Source: Bacteroidales bacterium (GTDB taxonomy: Bacteria > Bacteroidota > Bacteroidia > Bacteroidales > P3). From it: DNA of 53,253 nucleotides. The notes below the pieces were generated by a model, which saw only the letters and a list, made by a program, of their open reading frames with translations, was not told the DNA's origin and searched no databases. Below are positions 19,540 through 31,315 of the stretch, piece after piece. Numbering within the stretch: the first letter of the stretch is position 1; the number at the start of each line of letters is the position of its first letter. Both the position numbers and the translations under genes were made by a program. The DNA lies in NCBI GenBank assembly GCA_017522065.1, contig JAFXAD010000038.1, positions 1 to 53,253 of the forward strand. The letters run 5' to 3'.

Positions 19540-20937
19540 TCAATCCTTGTATTGCTCCTTGACGAATGAGGAGACTTCTTCCATCGCCTCGCGTGCCATG
19601 GTCTCCTCTATCCTCATATATTCACTCGTCGCTCCAGTTTCGCAATGTTGGAAAAGATGGTTCAAACCTGCCAGCAGTCTTATGCGGGCACGACCACCGG
19701 TTGCATTGTCGATTCCGTCCAAGTTTACAGGCAATACCTGGCAGTCACGGTCACCTCCCAAGGCAAGAATTGGGCAACGCACTTTGCGCAGATAGACACG
19801 GCTGTCAAGCTTCACGAAACAGCGCATCCATGCCATCTGCATTTGCATGGACAAACCCATGAGGTCTCCTTTGCGAAGGAACACCATCTTTCGCTGCTCA
19901 GAAGTCATATCCTTGCATTTTTCGTCAGCAATTGCATTCAACACCTTATTGTAATCATCCAAAGCAACGGTATCAATAGCTTTGAAAAAACTATTCATTA
20001 CGTCAAGTCTGACATCGATGACCTCTTTCGGGACACCGTTCAGTTCAAACAATCGTTCGTTCTGCTGCAGCAGCACATCTGCACCCGTAGTCCCCTGCCC
20101 GGCCATCATTACTATGAAGGCCACCTTCTTGTTCCTCGACGCCACGATTGGAGCAATCAAGCCACCCTCGCTGTGGCCCACAATGCCTACACACTTCGGG
20201 TCAATATTCTTTTGTTTACGCAGAAACTCGAACACCGCCTCCGCATCGTCGGCAAAATCCAGTGTTGTGGCATCGTTCACCGCACCTTTCGAACCACCCA
20301 CACCCCTGTCGTCATACCTCAGCACCGCTATTCCACGACGAGACAAAAAGTCGGCAAGAACAAGAAAAGGCTTATGCCCCATCAGTTCCTCGTCACGATT
20401 CTGCTGACCACTGCCACTCACAAGCACAACTGCCGGGAACGGACCTTTACCTTCTGGCACGGTCAGTGTTCCTGCCAAAGTCACACCTGCCTTTTTGCGT
20501 TCTATGGTGACCTCGCGCTCCGAATATGGGAATGGTGCTTGTGGCGTTTGAGGCCGTACAAGAGCAAACATCGTGTCGGTCGGTTCGAGAACCATCTGAC
20601 TTTTCAGCAGTCCCTGACGGAAAACACCTGTAAATATATTCGTTCCGGAGTTCCACACCAATGTAAGGCGGACACCCGTCGCGCTATGGTTGATGCGTAG
20701 CGTATCCTTCTCGAAACTCCATTTTGTGGCCTTCATCGGCTTGTCACTCTGCAGCGGGCTGTACAGAACCGGAGCGTTCTCCGAAAAAGTAAGGTTTATA
20801 GGCAAATTCGCCTCTTCTATCATTCCGAGCCACCATTTCCCTTCAAATTGAGACACATCTGCCTTTTGCGCAATCGCATATCCGAAACACGATGTCAAAA
20901 CCCAAAGGGCTACAAAAATTCCTATAGATTTCTTCAT
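19540..20937 (-). CDS. Exported alpha/beta hydrolase
   Basis: 465 residues from ATG at 20937, chosen because it overlaps the gldD stop as ATGA; an in-frame ATG nine bases earlier is also possible. A signal peptide ends YAIAQ. An N-terminal domain of about 120 residues precedes a hydrolase fold with VVLVSGSGQQNRDEE (oxyanion region), VLRYDDRGVGGS, the nucleophile elbow GHSEGG, and likely Asp and His near LGGDRDCQV and AGLNHLFQ. Resembles the broad periplasmic esterase/peptidase-like family; substrate unknown. Translationally coupled to gldD. Confidence 0.85.
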   Translation of the reverse strand: MKKSIGIFVALWVLTSCFGYAIAQKADVSQFEGKWWLGMIEEANLPINLTFSENAPVLYSPLQSDKPMKATKWSFEKDTLRINHSATGVRLTLVWNSGTNIFTGVFRQGLLKSQMVLEPTDTMFALVRPQTPQAPFPYSEREVTIERKKAGVTLAGTLTVPEGKGPFPAVVLVSGSGQQNRDEELMGHKPFLVLADFLSRRGIAVLRYDDRGVGGSKGAVNDATTLDFADDAEAVFEFLRKQKNIDPKCVGIVGHSEGGLIAPIVASRNKKVAFIVMMAGQGTTGADVLLQQNERLFELNGVPKEVIDVRLDVMNSFFKAIDTVALDDYNKVLNAIADEKCKDMTSEQRKMVFLRKGDLMGLSMQMQMAWMRCFVKLDSRVYLRKVRCPILALGGDRDCQVLPVNLDGIDNATGGRARIRLLAGLNHLFQHCETGATSEYMRIEETMAREAMEEVSSFVKEQYKD

Positions 20938-21602
20938 TTTCTCCATTTTAAAGTTTCAACCAAATGCACCATATCTTCCTGCAGGTACTCAAGAACAGGG
21001 GCCAACGAGTCGTTGTTCGGAACACAGTCTATGTAGAGCGACCCGCGCAGGAACCGGCTTACGCTGTCCGTGGCCCAGAACTGGAATGTCGACGCTACAT
21101 TCTGACCCTGAAGCCGATAAGTAGTAGCATACACATGGTTTGTATTATTTACAAACTGGCGTTCGTCCACTCCCGACGAGAAGCCGAAATGCTTGGACAG
21201 CAACTGATAGGAGGTGTCGACTTCAGCAGCCAAGTCGGAAAGACTGTTTATCTTTTTGTATGTAAGGAATATAATGCCGTCCCACTGCGGATAGGTGATG
21301 TCTATCCATGTCACTCCTTTGGGAGCGCCCTTCTCCCCCACCTCGGCACACTGGTTAGCCTCGAAAATGATTGGGAAAGTGTGGAAAGGCTTATCGTGCG
21401 AAATAGCAACCATAGTGTCACCCTGCCATATCAGCGTGTCGGCAAGAGGCAGGGTATCAACCTGCCAGTATTTGTGTTCAGGTAAGTCAATACGCATATA
21501 TCCCTGGGGTTTAGGCGTATACGAATCGCTGCCACCACACGAAACAAGCGTGGCAGCCATCATGACAGACATGAAAAAACACAGACCTTTTTTCTTTATC
21601 AT
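20934..21602 (-). CDS. gldD: Gliding motility/T9SS lipoprotein GldD
   Basis: 222 residues with lipobox Cys22 (ATLVSC). The mature start YTPKPQGYMRIDLPEHKYW and later WIDITYPQWDGIIFLTYK, TFQFWATDSVSRFLRGSLY and SLAPVLEYLQEDMVHLVETL are the conserved GldD segments. GldD is a periplasmic-facing lipoprotein needed for gliding in Flavobacterium and found in Bacteroidetes with T9SS, although its molecular role is unclear. It overlaps the downstream hydrolase gene by four bases. Confidence 0.88.
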   Translation of the reverse strand: MIKKKGLCFFMSVMMAATLVSCGGSDSYTPKPQGYMRIDLPEHKYWQVDTLPLADTLIWQGDTMVAISHDKPFHTFPIIFEANQCAEVGEKGAPKGVTWIDITYPQWDGIIFLTYKKINSLSDLAAEVDTSYQLLSKHFGFSSGVDERQFVNNTNHVYATTYRLQGQNVASTFQFWATDSVSRFLRGSLYIDCVPNNDSLAPVLEYLQEDMVHLVETLKWRK

Positions 21603-22065: not shown

Positions 22066-22716
22066 TCAGTAATTCAATTTTTCAAGCATCGGAACAAATT
22101 TGCAGTCACCGAATTTCTGCACTTTTATGTCTCTGATATCCTCACTCTGTTTCACTATGTGCAGCATCTCCTGACGTCCGTTGCCCACAGGAATAACCAT
22201 AACGCCTCCCGGTTTCAGTTGTCTCAGAAGTGCCTCTGGTATCTGTGGAGCCCCACAAGTCACGAGCACCCTGTCGAAAGGTGCGAACTCGGGCAGTCCG
22301 GCATAGCCGTCGCCAAGAAAACACTTGGCTTTGTACCCAAGTTCCGAAAGTCGCTTTATCGTCTCGTCATAAAGTTCTTTCTGACGTTCAACAGTATATA
22401 CCGTCAAACCCATCGCACAGAGAACTGCTGTCTGATATCCGCTACCGGTGCCGACTTCGAGTACCTTCATCCTTGGCGAGGCACCCAGCAACTGGCTCTG
22501 GAACGCCACCGTCGACGGTTGCGATATCGTCTGTCCGCAGCTGATAGGCAACGCTTTGTCCTCGTATGCCATATAGTCCAACATCGTCTCCAAAAACAGG
22601 TGCCGTGGAACACAAACAAGAGCATCGAGAACATTTCTGTCGTCAATGCCCTTATCGGCAAGTTTCTGTACCATTTCAGTACGCCAACGTTTATGCTTGA
22701 ATGTATCTAATTCCAT
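22066..22716 (-). CDS. pcm: Protein-L-isoaspartate O-methyltransferase
   Basis: Repairs isoaspartyl residues in damaged proteins by SAM-dependent methylation. 216 residues with the hallmark segments: PRHLFL and YMAYEDKALPISCGQTISQP (substrate loop), then VLEVGTGSGYQTAVLC (SAM glycine-rich motif I, about 90-105), DRVLVTCGAP and PGGVMVIPVG. The gene lies 56 bases downstream of the thiL homologue on the same strand, so the two may be cotranscribed. Convergent with 21642. Confidence 0.94.
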   Translation of the reverse strand: MELDTFKHKRWRTEMVQKLADKGIDDRNVLDALVCVPRHLFLETMLDYMAYEDKALPISCGQTISQPSTVAFQSQLLGASPRMKVLEVGTGSGYQTAVLCAMGLTVYTVERQKELYDETIKRLSELGYKAKCFLGDGYAGLPEFAPFDRVLVTCGAPQIPEALLRQLKPGGVMVIPVGNGRQEMLHIVKQSEDIRDIKVQKFGDCKFVPMLEKLNY

Positions 22717-22772: not shown

Positions 22773-23822
22773 TCATCTTTCTCTGAAGCCCTGTGCCACT
22801 AATGTTATCGTGCTGTTCTGAGGTGTCACCATGACAGCTGGCGCTCCTTTTTCAGTAATATGCCCGATTATGTGGACGCCTTCCATATCCTTCACCTTCT
22901 CGTAGTCCTTTTGGTCTATCGTGAACAGCAGTTCGTAGTCGCCACCGCCATTCAAGGCATTCGAAACAGGCAACATATTGTTGCTCATCTCGCTGCATAC
23001 TCGCGTGGTCTGATAGTCGATAGGTATACGTTCTTCGTACACCTCGCAACCGCATTCCGACTCTTTACAGATATGAAGCAGTTCAGAAGCAAGTCCGTCA
23101 CTCACGTCTATCATCGAAGTCGGCACAACACCTTTCTCGTCGAGTACCTTAACTATATCAATACGCGGCTCCGGCTTCAGAAAACGCTCAAGTACGTAAT
23201 CGTACGAATCGAGGTCCGGCTGGAAATTTGGATTTGCCTGGTACGTGACCTTTTCACGTTCCAAGACAAGCAGTCCCGAATAGGCACTGCCAAGATCACC
23301 GCTCACGCAAATCAGGTCGTGGCATTTGGCACCGTTCCGGTATGTTATCTTGCCTTCATCGGCCTCGCCTATTGCCGTAACTGTCAGCACCATCCCCGAC
23401 CGGCTGCTTCCAATGTTGCCACCAACAAGGTCCACATCGTAACGTTCACAGCACAAACGTATTCCGGCATAGAGCTCTTCGAGGGCTTCCACCGAATAGC
23501 GGTTCGAAACAGATACGCCTACCTCGATGTGTGTCGGTGTCCCGTTCATGGCGGCGATATTACTGATAGCGACAGCAACAGCCTTGTATCCAAGATGTTT
23601 CAGAGGAGTGTACATCATATCGAAGTCCACACCCTCGGCAAGAGAATTCATCGATATCAGGGTTTTCACTTTTCCGGCTCCTGTCACGGCGCAGTCGTCA
23701 CCGACTCCTTTTATGGTATTGGGACGACGGGGTTCGAAACCGTCCGTAAGACGCTCTATCAGCGCAAACTCACCCAATTCGTTCAGTTCGGTGCGTCCTT
23801 CCTGATATTCAAGTCCACTCAT
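22773..23822 (-). CDS. thiL: ThiL-like thiamine-monophosphate kinase homologue, variant active site
   Basis: 349 residues of the AIR-synthase/ThiL fold; ThiL makes thiamine diphosphate from the monophosphate. The Bacteroidales ThiL backbone is clear: KGVGDDCAV (39-46), YTPLKHLGYKA (71-81), CVSGDLGSAYSGL and SMIDVSDGLASELLHI. However, three Asp residues that normally bind Mg-ATP are Asn: the TTD position reads SMN (Asn59), SD..AMN reads SNIAAMN (Asn88), and GGD reads GGN (Asn136). GDD (41-43) and Asp242 are kept. Each Asn codon was checked on the minus strand. Function is therefore uncertain. Confidence 0.8.
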   Translation of the reverse strand: MSGLEYQEGRTELNELGEFALIERLTDGFEPRRPNTIKGVGDDCAVTGAGKVKTLISMNSLAEGVDFDMMYTPLKHLGYKAVAVAISNIAAMNGTPTHIEVGVSVSNRYSVEALEELYAGIRLCCERYDVDLVGGNIGSSRSGMVLTVTAIGEADEGKITYRNGAKCHDLICVSGDLGSAYSGLLVLEREKVTYQANPNFQPDLDSYDYVLERFLKPEPRIDIVKVLDEKGVVPTSMIDVSDGLASELLHICKESECGCEVYEERIPIDYQTTRVCSEMSNNMLPVSNALNGGGDYELLFTIDQKDYEKVKDMEGVHIIGHITEKGAPAVMVTPQNSTITLVAQGFRER

Positions 23823-23921: not shown

Positions 23922-25229
<1,308 letters not shown>

Positions 25230-28594: not shown

Positions 28595-31315
28595 ATGAAA
28601 AACGTCGTCTCTTTTCTTTGTCTTCTTGGCTGCATTCTTGCTGTGGCAATGGCTCAAAGGCCAAGCTATCCACAGAACACAAATTGTACTGGTTTGAAAA
28701 ATCCCTCAAATTTCACCTTTACAGGAGGTTTGGCAAACTCACAATGGGCTGGCTATATAGGCTCACGGCCCGCAGGTATTAGTACTTGCACAACACCCGC
28801 AGCGAGTTTCACAACTCCAGTCGCAGCAGCCAATCTGGAAAGTACCACTGGCTCAACGTCATGTACATCATCATCTTCCGTCAATATCGATGGACAAAGC
28901 GACCAATACAAACGATTTGTCATCAAAGCAGCAGGCAACGACCCCGTGACAGGCAATAACCTGTCGTACCTTCCGCCTGACACCTCCTTCCATACCTCCA
29001 TACGCTTAGGAAACTCATGCCAAAGCGCTGAAGCAGAGATGCTCATCTACTCTTTTGACGTAACCGCCGACAATGCTCTGGTTACCATTTGGTATGCAAT
29101 GTCTCTCGAGAACGCATTACATGCCTCATCCAACAATCCTGAATTCACAATCGTTGTTGAAAAACAAGACCCCGTCACTCAAGCCTGGTCTCTCGCCGGA
29201 GGTAATGCATTATGCTACATCAAACAGAGTCCTGCATCAGGAGAGCCTTTAGGCGATTTCCAACAGTCAGGTTACAACCTCTACCTGCCTTGGCGAAAGG
29301 TTGTTATCAATCTTCAAGACTTGATTTACTGGAGAGTCCGCATCAAAATCGCAGCAGGCGACTGCTCTCAGAGTGGTCACTATGGCTACTGCTACTTTGC
29401 CGGCGAATGCCAGTCCATGAGCCTTAAAGCCAACGGTTGCGCCGCTGGCGAAACCGAGACCGTGGCCACCATCGCCGCACCTAATGGGGCAACAGCATAC
29501 GAATGGTACCGCAGCCGCACCGGACGACTCGACGAAGGCGTTAACGACCTCAGCAACTACGTTCTTATCCCTGGCGCAACTGAATCTGTCCTTAATGCCA
29601 CCATCTCTCAATTCACTAACCTCAACACCAACGAGACCCTCAATGAGAACACCTTCCTCTGCCGCATGACAACCTACATGAACCCCGCCATCCCGGTATA
29701 TTCCAACCTTACCGTCAATGTCGGCAACACAAAACCTACTCTCATCGTCGACAGCATCTTCGGTTGCGAAGCCAACATCACTCTTCGCGACCTCAGTGTG
29801 ACTCCATACCACTCGAGCGAAGACGAAACCGTCGATACCACCAAGACTCGCTGGTACTTCTACAACTCCGCCAACCCAACACCTCAAACTCTTGCCGACA
29901 GCTCTGTAGGCCCTTCGGCTTCTCACACGTTCAACAACGCCGGCAACTACTGCGTCCGAATCCGCACATCGACCTACGACTCCACCTGCTGGAACGAGAA
30001 AACCGTTAACTTCCGCGTCTATAAGAAACCCACACCCGTCGTAAACATCGACCGCAACAATCTTTGCGAGGGTGACACCATTCGACTCTTCGACCAAACC
30101 ATGGGCTCCACATACCACCGCTGGATTACTCCCGACACCGATTTTGTTGCTCCCGCTCAGGCTACACGTCTGACATTCAACACAACGACCGATGTACGAC
30201 TCATCACCCGCAACGCCAACTACTTCATGTCCGACACCACAGGCGACGGCATAACGGAACCCACCTACTGCTACAACGACACAACATTCACCATCTTCGT
30301 CGAGAAATACCCAGAGGTGCATGTCCTCGGCGACACCATCGTCTGCAACGGCGACCAGTCCGACGTATCTGTGACAAGCGATGTGCCCAACACACACTTC
30401 AACTGGTATCAGATTTATGGTAGCACTGCACCCTTCATCGAGGACAACGACCGACTCGTCACCAGCATCAGCGACGACCGCACCTACTTTGTCAAAGCCA
30501 TAACCCCGTTCGGATGCGAGGCCTGGGACAGCATCAACCTCTATCTCGTCAAACCCGACCTCCATGCCGACAAGGACCGCATCTGCGTCGGCGATTCGGT
30601 CCACCTCACGGCAGGACAAGCCGCATACTTCGAATGGACTTCCAACCCGCCCGACCCGTTCCTCAGCACCCAGAGCACCGAATCCGAAATCGTCGTCAAT
30701 CCTGAGCAGACTACCGTCTACAGCGTCGTCGGACACGGAACCAACGGCTGCAGCGCCACAGCTCTATCGCAGAAAATTACCGTCTATCCTTGGCCCATAC
30801 AGCACATAAAGCTGACTCCCGACTATATCGACTCCGAGAATCCATCGGTCCAGTTCGCCGACCTGTCCGAAAACAGCACCACATCGCTCTGGAATTTCGG
30901 CAATGGCAACACTTCCACACTCCGCACCGTGGTCTTCTCCTTCTCCGACCTCAGCCAGGACTCCATCCTCATCTCGCTGACCACAGGCAACGAGCTGGGC
31001 TGCTCGCGCGACACTTCGTTCTACATTCCCGTAGGCATCTTCGCAGTGTGGTTCCCCAACGCTTTCACTCCGCGACTCGAGACCAACAACATCTTCAAGC
31101 CCTTCACGGCTAATGACCTCGAAGACTACGAACTCTACATCTACGACCGGTCGGGAACACTGGTATTCCACACCAACAACATCGAAGAGGGCTGGGACGG
31201 AAAATACAGAGGACACGACTGCAAACCAGGAGCATACGTATACATAACGAACTACCGCCGTACCGGAGTCAAACAGCTCCTCTCTCAGAAAGGTACCGTG
31301 ACTATCATCAGATAA
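28595..31315 (+). CDS. T9SS type B cargo protein, tandem copy 1
   Basis: 906 residues with a signal peptide (ends AVAMAQ). The N-terminal ~270 residues form a Cys/Ser/Thr-rich beta domain (SYPQNTNCTGLKNPSNFTFT start). The middle holds several Ig/PKD-like modules, including SVQFADLSENSTTSLWNFGN near 775. The C-terminal ~85 residues (WFPNAFTPRLETNNIFKPF, then LYIYDRSGTLVFHTN, EEGWDGKYRG and GAYVYIT) are a gliding-motility-associated (type B) sorting domain. Expected to be secreted by T9SS and kept on the surface. A paralogue follows; identity jumps near residue 270. Terminators lie on both sides. Confidence 0.85.
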   Translation: MKNVVSFLCLLGCILAVAMAQRPSYPQNTNCTGLKNPSNFTFTGGLANSQWAGYIGSRPAGISTCTTPAASFTTPVAAANLESTTGSTSCTSSSSVNIDGQSDQYKRFVIKAAGNDPVTGNNLSYLPPDTSFHTSIRLGNSCQSAEAEMLIYSFDVTADNALVTIWYAMSLENALHASSNNPEFTIVVEKQDPVTQAWSLAGGNALCYIKQSPASGEPLGDFQQSGYNLYLPWRKVVINLQDLIYWRVRIKIAAGDCSQSGHYGYCYFAGECQSMSLKANGCAAGETETVATIAAPNGATAYEWYRSRTGRLDEGVNDLSNYVLIPGATESVLNATISQFTNLNTNETLNENTFLCRMTTYMNPAIPVYSNLTVNVGNTKPTLIVDSIFGCEANITLRDLSVTPYHSSEDETVDTTKTRWYFYNSANPTPQTLADSSVGPSASHTFNNAGNYCVRIRTSTYDSTCWNEKTVNFRVYKKPTPVVNIDRNNLCEGDTIRLFDQTMGSTYHRWITPDTDFVAPAQATRLTFNTTTDVRLITRNANYFMSDTTGDGITEPTYCYNDTTFTIFVEKYPEVHVLGDTIVCNGDQSDVSVTSDVPNTHFNWYQIYGSTAPFIEDNDRLVTSISDDRTYFVKAITPFGCEAWDSINLYLVKPDLHADKDRICVGDSVHLTAGQAAYFEWTSNPPDPFLSTQSTESEIVVNPEQTTVYSVVGHGTNGCSATALSQKITVYPWPIQHIKLTPDYIDSENPSVQFADLSENSTTSLWNFGNGNTSTLRTVVFSFSDLSQDSILISLTTGNELGCSRDTSFYIPVGIFAVWFPNAFTPRLETNNIFKPFTANDLEDYELYIYDRSGTLVFHTNNIEEGWDGKYRGHDCKPGAYVYITNYRRTGVKQLLSQKGTVTIIR

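Follow-up and report, generated by a model that had tools for sequence, protein, structure and literature searches.

A ThiL homologue from Bacteroidales with two metal-site aspartates replaced by asparagine: a candidate kinase-dead protein

What keeps a thiL gene in a genome when acids of its active site have been replaced? This question is raised by a gene in a stretch of 53,253 nucleotides from a member of the Bacteroidales (contig JAFXAD010000038.1 of assembly GCA_017522065.1), the whole of which is called the window below. The gene occupies positions 22773–23822 of the minus strand and codes for a ThiL homologue of 349 aa, which by its sequence appears to be kinase-dead, i.e., a putative pseudo-ThiL. 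An earlier note on the same DNA had placed the gene at 23319–23822, an interval that covers residues 1–168 only.

The gene and its active site

The window protein matched TIGR01379 (thiL) over its full length with 281 bits, against a curated cut-off of 184, and contained both AIRS (72.8 bits; cut-off 24) and AIRS_C (23.5 bits; cut-off 23.1). Scores for the families HypE (44 bits; cut-off 251.6) and SelD (33.7 bits; cut-off 125) both remained below threshold, and PurM was absent among the listed family matches of the protein. Its structure, predicted with AlphaFold from 46 genus and outgroup sequences, had a pLDDT of 86.9 and a pTM of 0.86. When the model was searched against the PDB, the 17 best matches were all ThiL structures, led by AaThiL (E 1.1e-30), with TM-scores of 0.79/0.90 against entry 3c9r. 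As modelled, the window protein has the ThiL fold. The earlier note had proposed looking for a second, canonical thiL; none was found in the window's genome, a 2.6-Mb draft that is 91% complete.

Downstream, thiL is adjoined by pcm, the gene for protein-L-isoaspartate O-methyltransferase (22066–22716, minus strand). The same arrangement is seen in the loci of the genus, pcm being found beside thiL in 186 of 187 of them, many of which represent the same genomes seen twice. Also downstream on the same strand is gldD, coding for a gliding motility lipoprotein (20934–21602, minus strand). The upstream neighbour is eno, encoding enolase (23922–25211, minus strand), which we took as an independent marker to build a tree of the genus; it lies directly upstream of thiL in the closest relatives of the window and elsewhere in many other genus members. 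The window also encodes, at 28595–31315 of the plus strand, a predicted secreted protein of 906 aa, whose C-terminal part resembles by eye a gliding/type IX secretion domain.

For PaThiL, PMC13254938 names Asp30, Asp47, Asp75 and Asp211 as metal-coordinating and "strictly conserved": Asp47 and Asp75 bind one metal together with the gamma-phosphate of ATP, and Asp30, Asp75 and Asp211 bind another. Matched by motif, with alignments to AaThiL and AbThiL as support, these four correspond to window residues 43, 59, 88 and 239. The window protein keeps Asp43 within an intact GDD motif (residues 41–43, codons GGT GAC GAC; 23694–23702, minus strand) and Asp239 within an intact DVSD motif (residues 239–242; 23097–23108, minus strand). 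The other two residues are Asn59 (AAT; 23646–23648, minus strand) and Asn88 (AAT; 23559–23561, minus strand), so that, if the motif matching is right, both acids of the gamma-phosphate metal site are now amides. Asn136 (AAC; 23415–23417, minus strand) stands at the position of PaThiL Asp122. AaThiL naturally has Asn there, which according to the same paper serves Mg coordination, and the A. aeolicus chains 1vqv and 3c9r read GGN at the aligned position; Asn136 therefore does not speak clearly for either activity or inactivity. Two further changes accompany these three: Asp66 (23625–23627, minus strand) replaces the His that, matched by motif, corresponds to the TMP-contacting His54 of PaThiL (PMC13254938), and Gly294 (22941–22943, minus strand) replaces the Glu of GGEDYE in the genus alignment.

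Rereading the codons on the minus strand returned Asn59, Asn88 and Asn136 as the earlier note had reported them, along with its retained GDD and Asp242 (GAC). Its statement that three Asp had been lost at metal/ATP sites stands for 59 and 88, the strictly conserved ligands, and is weaker for 136, given the Asn of AaThiL. Judged from these alignments, Asn59 and Asn88 are the two of the three Asn changes that matter.

Spread, recurrence and selection within the genus

Our genus sample comprised 119 genomes, 62 of them classed as good, and thiL was present in 108 of all and in 60 of the good ones. We rejected loss of the gene in the other 11 genomes, since the linked pcm gave no match in the same 11 (in a search without a positive control), which makes a missing region likelier than gene loss. 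For the residue counts, G013b (another ThiL type) and G120 (a fragment) were dropped and the second copy of G070 was left out; the 108 sequences that remain represent 107 genomes, two of them being from G068. Site 88 was Asn in 82 of these sequences (codons AAT in 54, AAC in 28) and Asp in 26, with no other residue found. Asp59 was also gone in 76 of the 82 Asn88 sequences, site 59 being Gln in 60, Asn in 12, Asp in 6, Glu in 2, and Ser and Gly in 1 each. Of the 60 good genomes with the gene, 42 had lost both Asp, 2 Asp88 alone, and 16 had kept both. The earlier note had spoken of three coordinated changes. They do not represent one event: sites 59 and 88 mostly changed jointly, but six Asn88 proteins keep Asp59, and site 136 varies separately from both across the genus (D, E, S, N, G). 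The closest relative found, from a separate genome (G112) and 86% identical, shares Asn59, Asn88 and Asn136. Together with the Asn88 of 82 genus sequences, this makes sequencing error, which the earlier note had named as a possible refutation, very unlikely; with the same residues and codons in relatives from other genomes, we rejected sequencing or assembly error.

Other positions tell how far the change extends. Every genus sequence readable there has Asp at 42 and 43, and Asp42, Asp43, Asp239, Asp295 and Glu297 are invariant in the 76 proteins without Asp59 and Asp88, across which we counted 107 invariant sites. Asp242, intact in the window, and Glu294 are replaced in many genus members, and roughly three in four of the changed proteins lack the TMP-contacting His. 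Glu18 and Phe19 of helix 1, both kept in the window protein, are gone from most of the 76. In 43 of the 108 sequences, a positive residue at 242 or 294 is paired with a negative one at the other site (Lys/Arg242 with Glu/Asp294 in 24, Asp/Glu242 with Lys/Arg294 in 19), and in none are both positive; by corrected mutual information, this pair ranks only 431 of 55,945. Such a pattern is no more than suggestive of a salt bridge in place of a metal. There was no stop inside any genus thiL match, and split matches occurred in 2 of 108 genomes, namely in G020, which has Asp88, and in G120, which is unreadable at site 88.

A single origin of Asn88 was not supported by either of our trees. The enolase tree included 96 of 102 matched genomes (6 partial ones were left out), 92 of them with a site-88 state. 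On this tree there were six site-88 changes within the genus, compared with at least 17 when labels were shuffled; in the shortest histories, four or five of the six were from Asp to Asn and the rest were regains. The ThiL tree also gave six changes within the genus, and its shortest histories count three to five of them as Asp-to-Asn. When regain was forbidden, 10 losses were needed on the enolase and ThiL trees alike. It is important to note that these counts rest on weak single-gene trees and that, with the changed proteins evolving faster, long-branch attraction may have affected the ThiL tree. By a rough estimate, a single-base change in an Asp codon yields Asn about one time in four. Without selection it would thus be unusual for three to five independent changes to end at Asn every time and to show no later drift, although this is a rough argument and not a test.

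The changed thiL is under purifying selection, though relaxed. For the changed group (933 of 2850 pairs usable) and the Asp88 group (111 of 325), median dN/dS was 0.178 and 0.110, respectively, with pairs limited to dS of 0.15 to 1.2, dS being near saturation and the pairs not independent; for the six nearest relatives of the window, dS was saturated and gave no ratio. Relative to pcm, thiL distances were also larger in the changed group (ratio 0.67, 74 genomes) than in the Asp88 group (0.32, 26 genomes).

We then asked where conserved positions had been lost. The reference was a set of 51 canonical ThiL from the Bacteroidales (of 61 order-level sequences, 7 were degenerate and 3 were incomplete or ambiguous), in which 80 positions reach a conservation of at least 95%. 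The changed group had lost 5 of 10 active-site positions versus 8 of 70 others (p 0.0084), an enrichment that is partly circular because sites 59 and 88 define the groups; the Asp88 group had lost 0 of 10 and 1 of 70, respectively. Leaving out 59 and 88 gave 3 of 8 (p 0.08), and leaving out 136 as well gave 2 of 7 (p 0.22). By our own reading, four of the eight "other" losses, Glu18, Phe19, Ser246 and Glu294, belong to or border on motifs of this active site.

Thiamine route and the wider Bacteroidales

The earlier note had also suggested looking for other thiamine genes. ThiC was matched in none of the 119 genus genomes, the window's genome included (controls 13 of 14), and ThiE in one, which was not the window's genome (controls 11 of 14); Bacteroides ihuae was among the control genomes with a match. 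Thiamine pyrophosphokinase (TPK), on the other hand, was matched in 110 of the 119 and in 61 of the 62 good genomes, and is present in that of the window. Given these three counts, TPP in the genus is probably made without ThiL: cells would take up thiamine, and TPK would turn it into TPP in one step, bypassing TMP. One locus (L139), from the 59% complete draft genome G106, where thiL was not found, has the order TonB receptor, PnuT-like transporter, TPK, all putative as read from the sequence. It corresponds to the OMthi-pnuT-tnr3 order that PMC5613172 reports from gut Bacteroidetes; the same paper lists YjbQ beside ThiE. No TPP riboswitch scored above the gathering threshold in the window or in L139. 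The thiamine route alone fails to explain the loss of the metal acids, because it is common to Asp88 and Asn88 members.

The single ThiE match of the genus comes from G013, where thiE lies on one contig (C207, locus L230) with a different, canonical thiL of the thiE-associated type. This contig probably represents contamination or horizontal transfer.

Beyond the genus, thiL was found above the cut-off in 189 of 198 Bacteroidales genomes and thiE in 86 (75 above the cut-off); 106 of the 112 genomes without a thiE match have thiL above the cut-off. That thiL is far commoner than thiE in this order raises the question of what else ThiL does. We read 101 order-level sequences, a non-random set made of best-scoring and low-scoring ones, 40 from the lower middle and close relatives, one of which (G202) is of the thiE-associated type. 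The set of four metal Asp is complete in 93 of them and incomplete in 7, and 1 (G239) is truncated; site 59 of G276 and G214 is canonical in the multiple alignment and reads differently in the pairwise view. Most thiE-less genomes read have a canonical ThiL (52 of the sequences read, G213 included), so loss of ThiE alone is not enough for degeneration.

The seven degenerate sequences come from four families, labelled f2 (3), f9 (2), f53 (1) and f86 (1). In the order-level ThiL tree (FastTree), the f86 sequence (G290) fell among canonical ones, while f2, f9 and f53 grouped together, possibly by long branches. Such a topology suggests at least three separate origins of degenerate ThiL, the genus included. 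The f53 genome (G170; loci L306 and L301) carries thiE and two ThiL, one canonical and grouping with the thiE-associated type, the usual copy being degenerate. We rejected the gene neighbourhood as a clue to function: within the genus, pcm is adjacent to both thiL forms, neither a partner nor a neighbour specific to the changed one was found, and at the order level the neighbours vary (punA/lpxK, sufB and uvrC, as read from the sequences).

Possible roles and comparison with known systems

On balance, and with modest confidence, we consider the window protein to be probably a kinase-dead pseudoenzyme with the ThiL fold, kept for a non-catalytic role. The ThiL active site sits between the two subunits of a dimer. 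Asn59 and Asn88 would put neutral amides at the gamma-phosphate metal site, and Asp66 would stand where TMP is contacted by His; because these residues replace metal and TMP contacts, phosphate transfer to TMP would be lost while the fold stays. The protein would still fold and probably dimerise, and a nucleotide may still bind via the kept GDD loop and one metal. The kinase step would be dispensable because the genus appears to import thiamine and to make TPP by TPK without TMP, and the protein would be kept because of a second role, most likely that of a dimeric scaffold or regulatory partner. With its GDD loop, Glu18 and Phe19 in place, the window protein might possibly sense ATP. Nucleotide binding need not be shared by the relatives, because many have lost Glu18 and Phe19, and a dimeric scaffold or regulator would be the more general reading. 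The pseudoenzyme reading can explain why the metal acids are gone, why the pathway is missing, why site 88 is uniformly Asn and why the gene was retained. We are more tentative about extending it: it is quite possible, though somewhat less likely than not, that Bacteroidales ThiL has a second, non-kinase function, kept whether or not TMP is made, and that kinase activity was given up in the genus and, independently, in other families, leaving that function alone.

The earlier note had favoured a changed reaction, a pseudo-enzyme or a regulatory role over random decay. Slow decay would mean that import and TPK made the TMP kinase needless and that the active site drifted in a gene not yet deleted. 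The higher thiL/pcm ratio and dN/dS of the changed group agree with this, as do the near absence of a TMP-making pathway (ThiE in 1 and ThiC in 0 of the 119 genomes) and the weak concentration of losses in the active site beyond the defining sites. We nevertheless find decay unlikely: Asn is the sole replacement at site 88 in 82 of 82 changed sequences, dN/dS is far below 1, internal stops are absent, neither split match is readable as Asn88, and a gene kept in 60 of 62 good genomes retains 107 invariant sites in its most changed forms. A pseudo-enzyme, one of the readings offered in the earlier note, is thus favoured over simple decay, with the amendments that the pattern is genus-wide and the constraint relaxed.

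Two readings would preserve catalysis. The protein might be a changed enzyme, either a metal-poor or re-specified phosphotransferase or one performing another AIR-synthase-fold reaction, through Asp42, Asp43, Asp239, Asp295 and Glu297. The invariance of these residues in all 76 proteins that lost both Asp speaks for it, as do the opposite charges at 242 and 294 in 43 of the 108 scored, which would fit a salt bridge taking the place of a metal, and the diversity of reactions in the superfamily (HypE, SelD, AIR synthetase). But the 76 lack both gamma-phosphate metal acids and mostly Glu18/Phe19, no new catalytic-looking residue was recognised, and the neighbours give no clue to a substrate, so we regard a changed enzyme as rather improbable. 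It is most improbable, in our opinion, that the protein is still a TMP kinase that tolerates amides at 59 and 88 and salvages TMP from TPP breakdown. Asn is admittedly a conservative swap, accepted at 136 by A. aeolicus ThiL, and the window protein still has GDD, Asp239 and Asp242. Nevertheless, the replaced residues correspond to Asp47 and Asp75, both reported among the strictly conserved ligands (PMC13254938), all four metal Asp persist in 93 of 101 Bacteroidales ThiL outside the genus, and about three quarters of the changed group have lost the TMP-contacting His.

The presence of ThiL is taken as a sign that a genome makes TPP, and in vitamin reconstructions the final step is scored by ThiL or ThiN (PMC6593275). 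Should these copies be kinase-dead, annotation of this kind would be misleading for a set of Bacteroidales from rumen and gut. The genus might also be seen as a natural experiment, in which canonical and stripped ThiL occur in close relatives without a TMP-making pathway, separating the kinase from any second role. No report of degenerate ThiL was found in the open-licence PMC literature among the matches listed.

With characterised ThiL (AaThiL 3c9r/3c9t/3c9u, AbThiL 5cc8, PaThiL 8yks), the window protein shares full-length homology, AIRS/AIRS_C, the predicted fold, and the GDD and DVSDG motifs, and with AaThiL also the Asn at the Asp122 position. Unlike them, it has Asn at two of the four metal Asp, Asp for the TMP-contacting His and Gly for the Glu of GGED; a TMP-making pathway was not found in its genus. 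The degenerate ThiL of f2, f53, f86 and f9 resemble it in having lost some of the same metal sites in an apparently orthologous gene. Their residues differ from those of the window, namely Lys59 with Asn or Val239 in f2, Arg59/His136/Ser239 in f86, and Leu59/Ser88/Ser239/Ser242 in f53, where a second, canonical ThiL is present in the genome; the f9 sequences (G032, G236) are too diverged for safe site alignment.

The nearest precedent found for such a functional shift comes from the same superfamily: SEPHS1/SPS1, the second selenophosphate synthetase of animals, is an AIR-synthase-fold protein kept without the ancestral reaction, as we propose for the pseudo-ThiL. According to PMC8584027, SEPHS2 alone is known to have selenophosphate synthetase activity, and PMC4561486 describes functional relocation as recurrent. 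A SEPHS1:QRICH1 complex (9hjt) is in the PDB, where it appeared among our structure search matches. The two cases differ in that SEPHS1 is an animal paralogue beside an active copy, whereas the window protein is a single-copy bacterial orthologue in a genome where no active copy was found.
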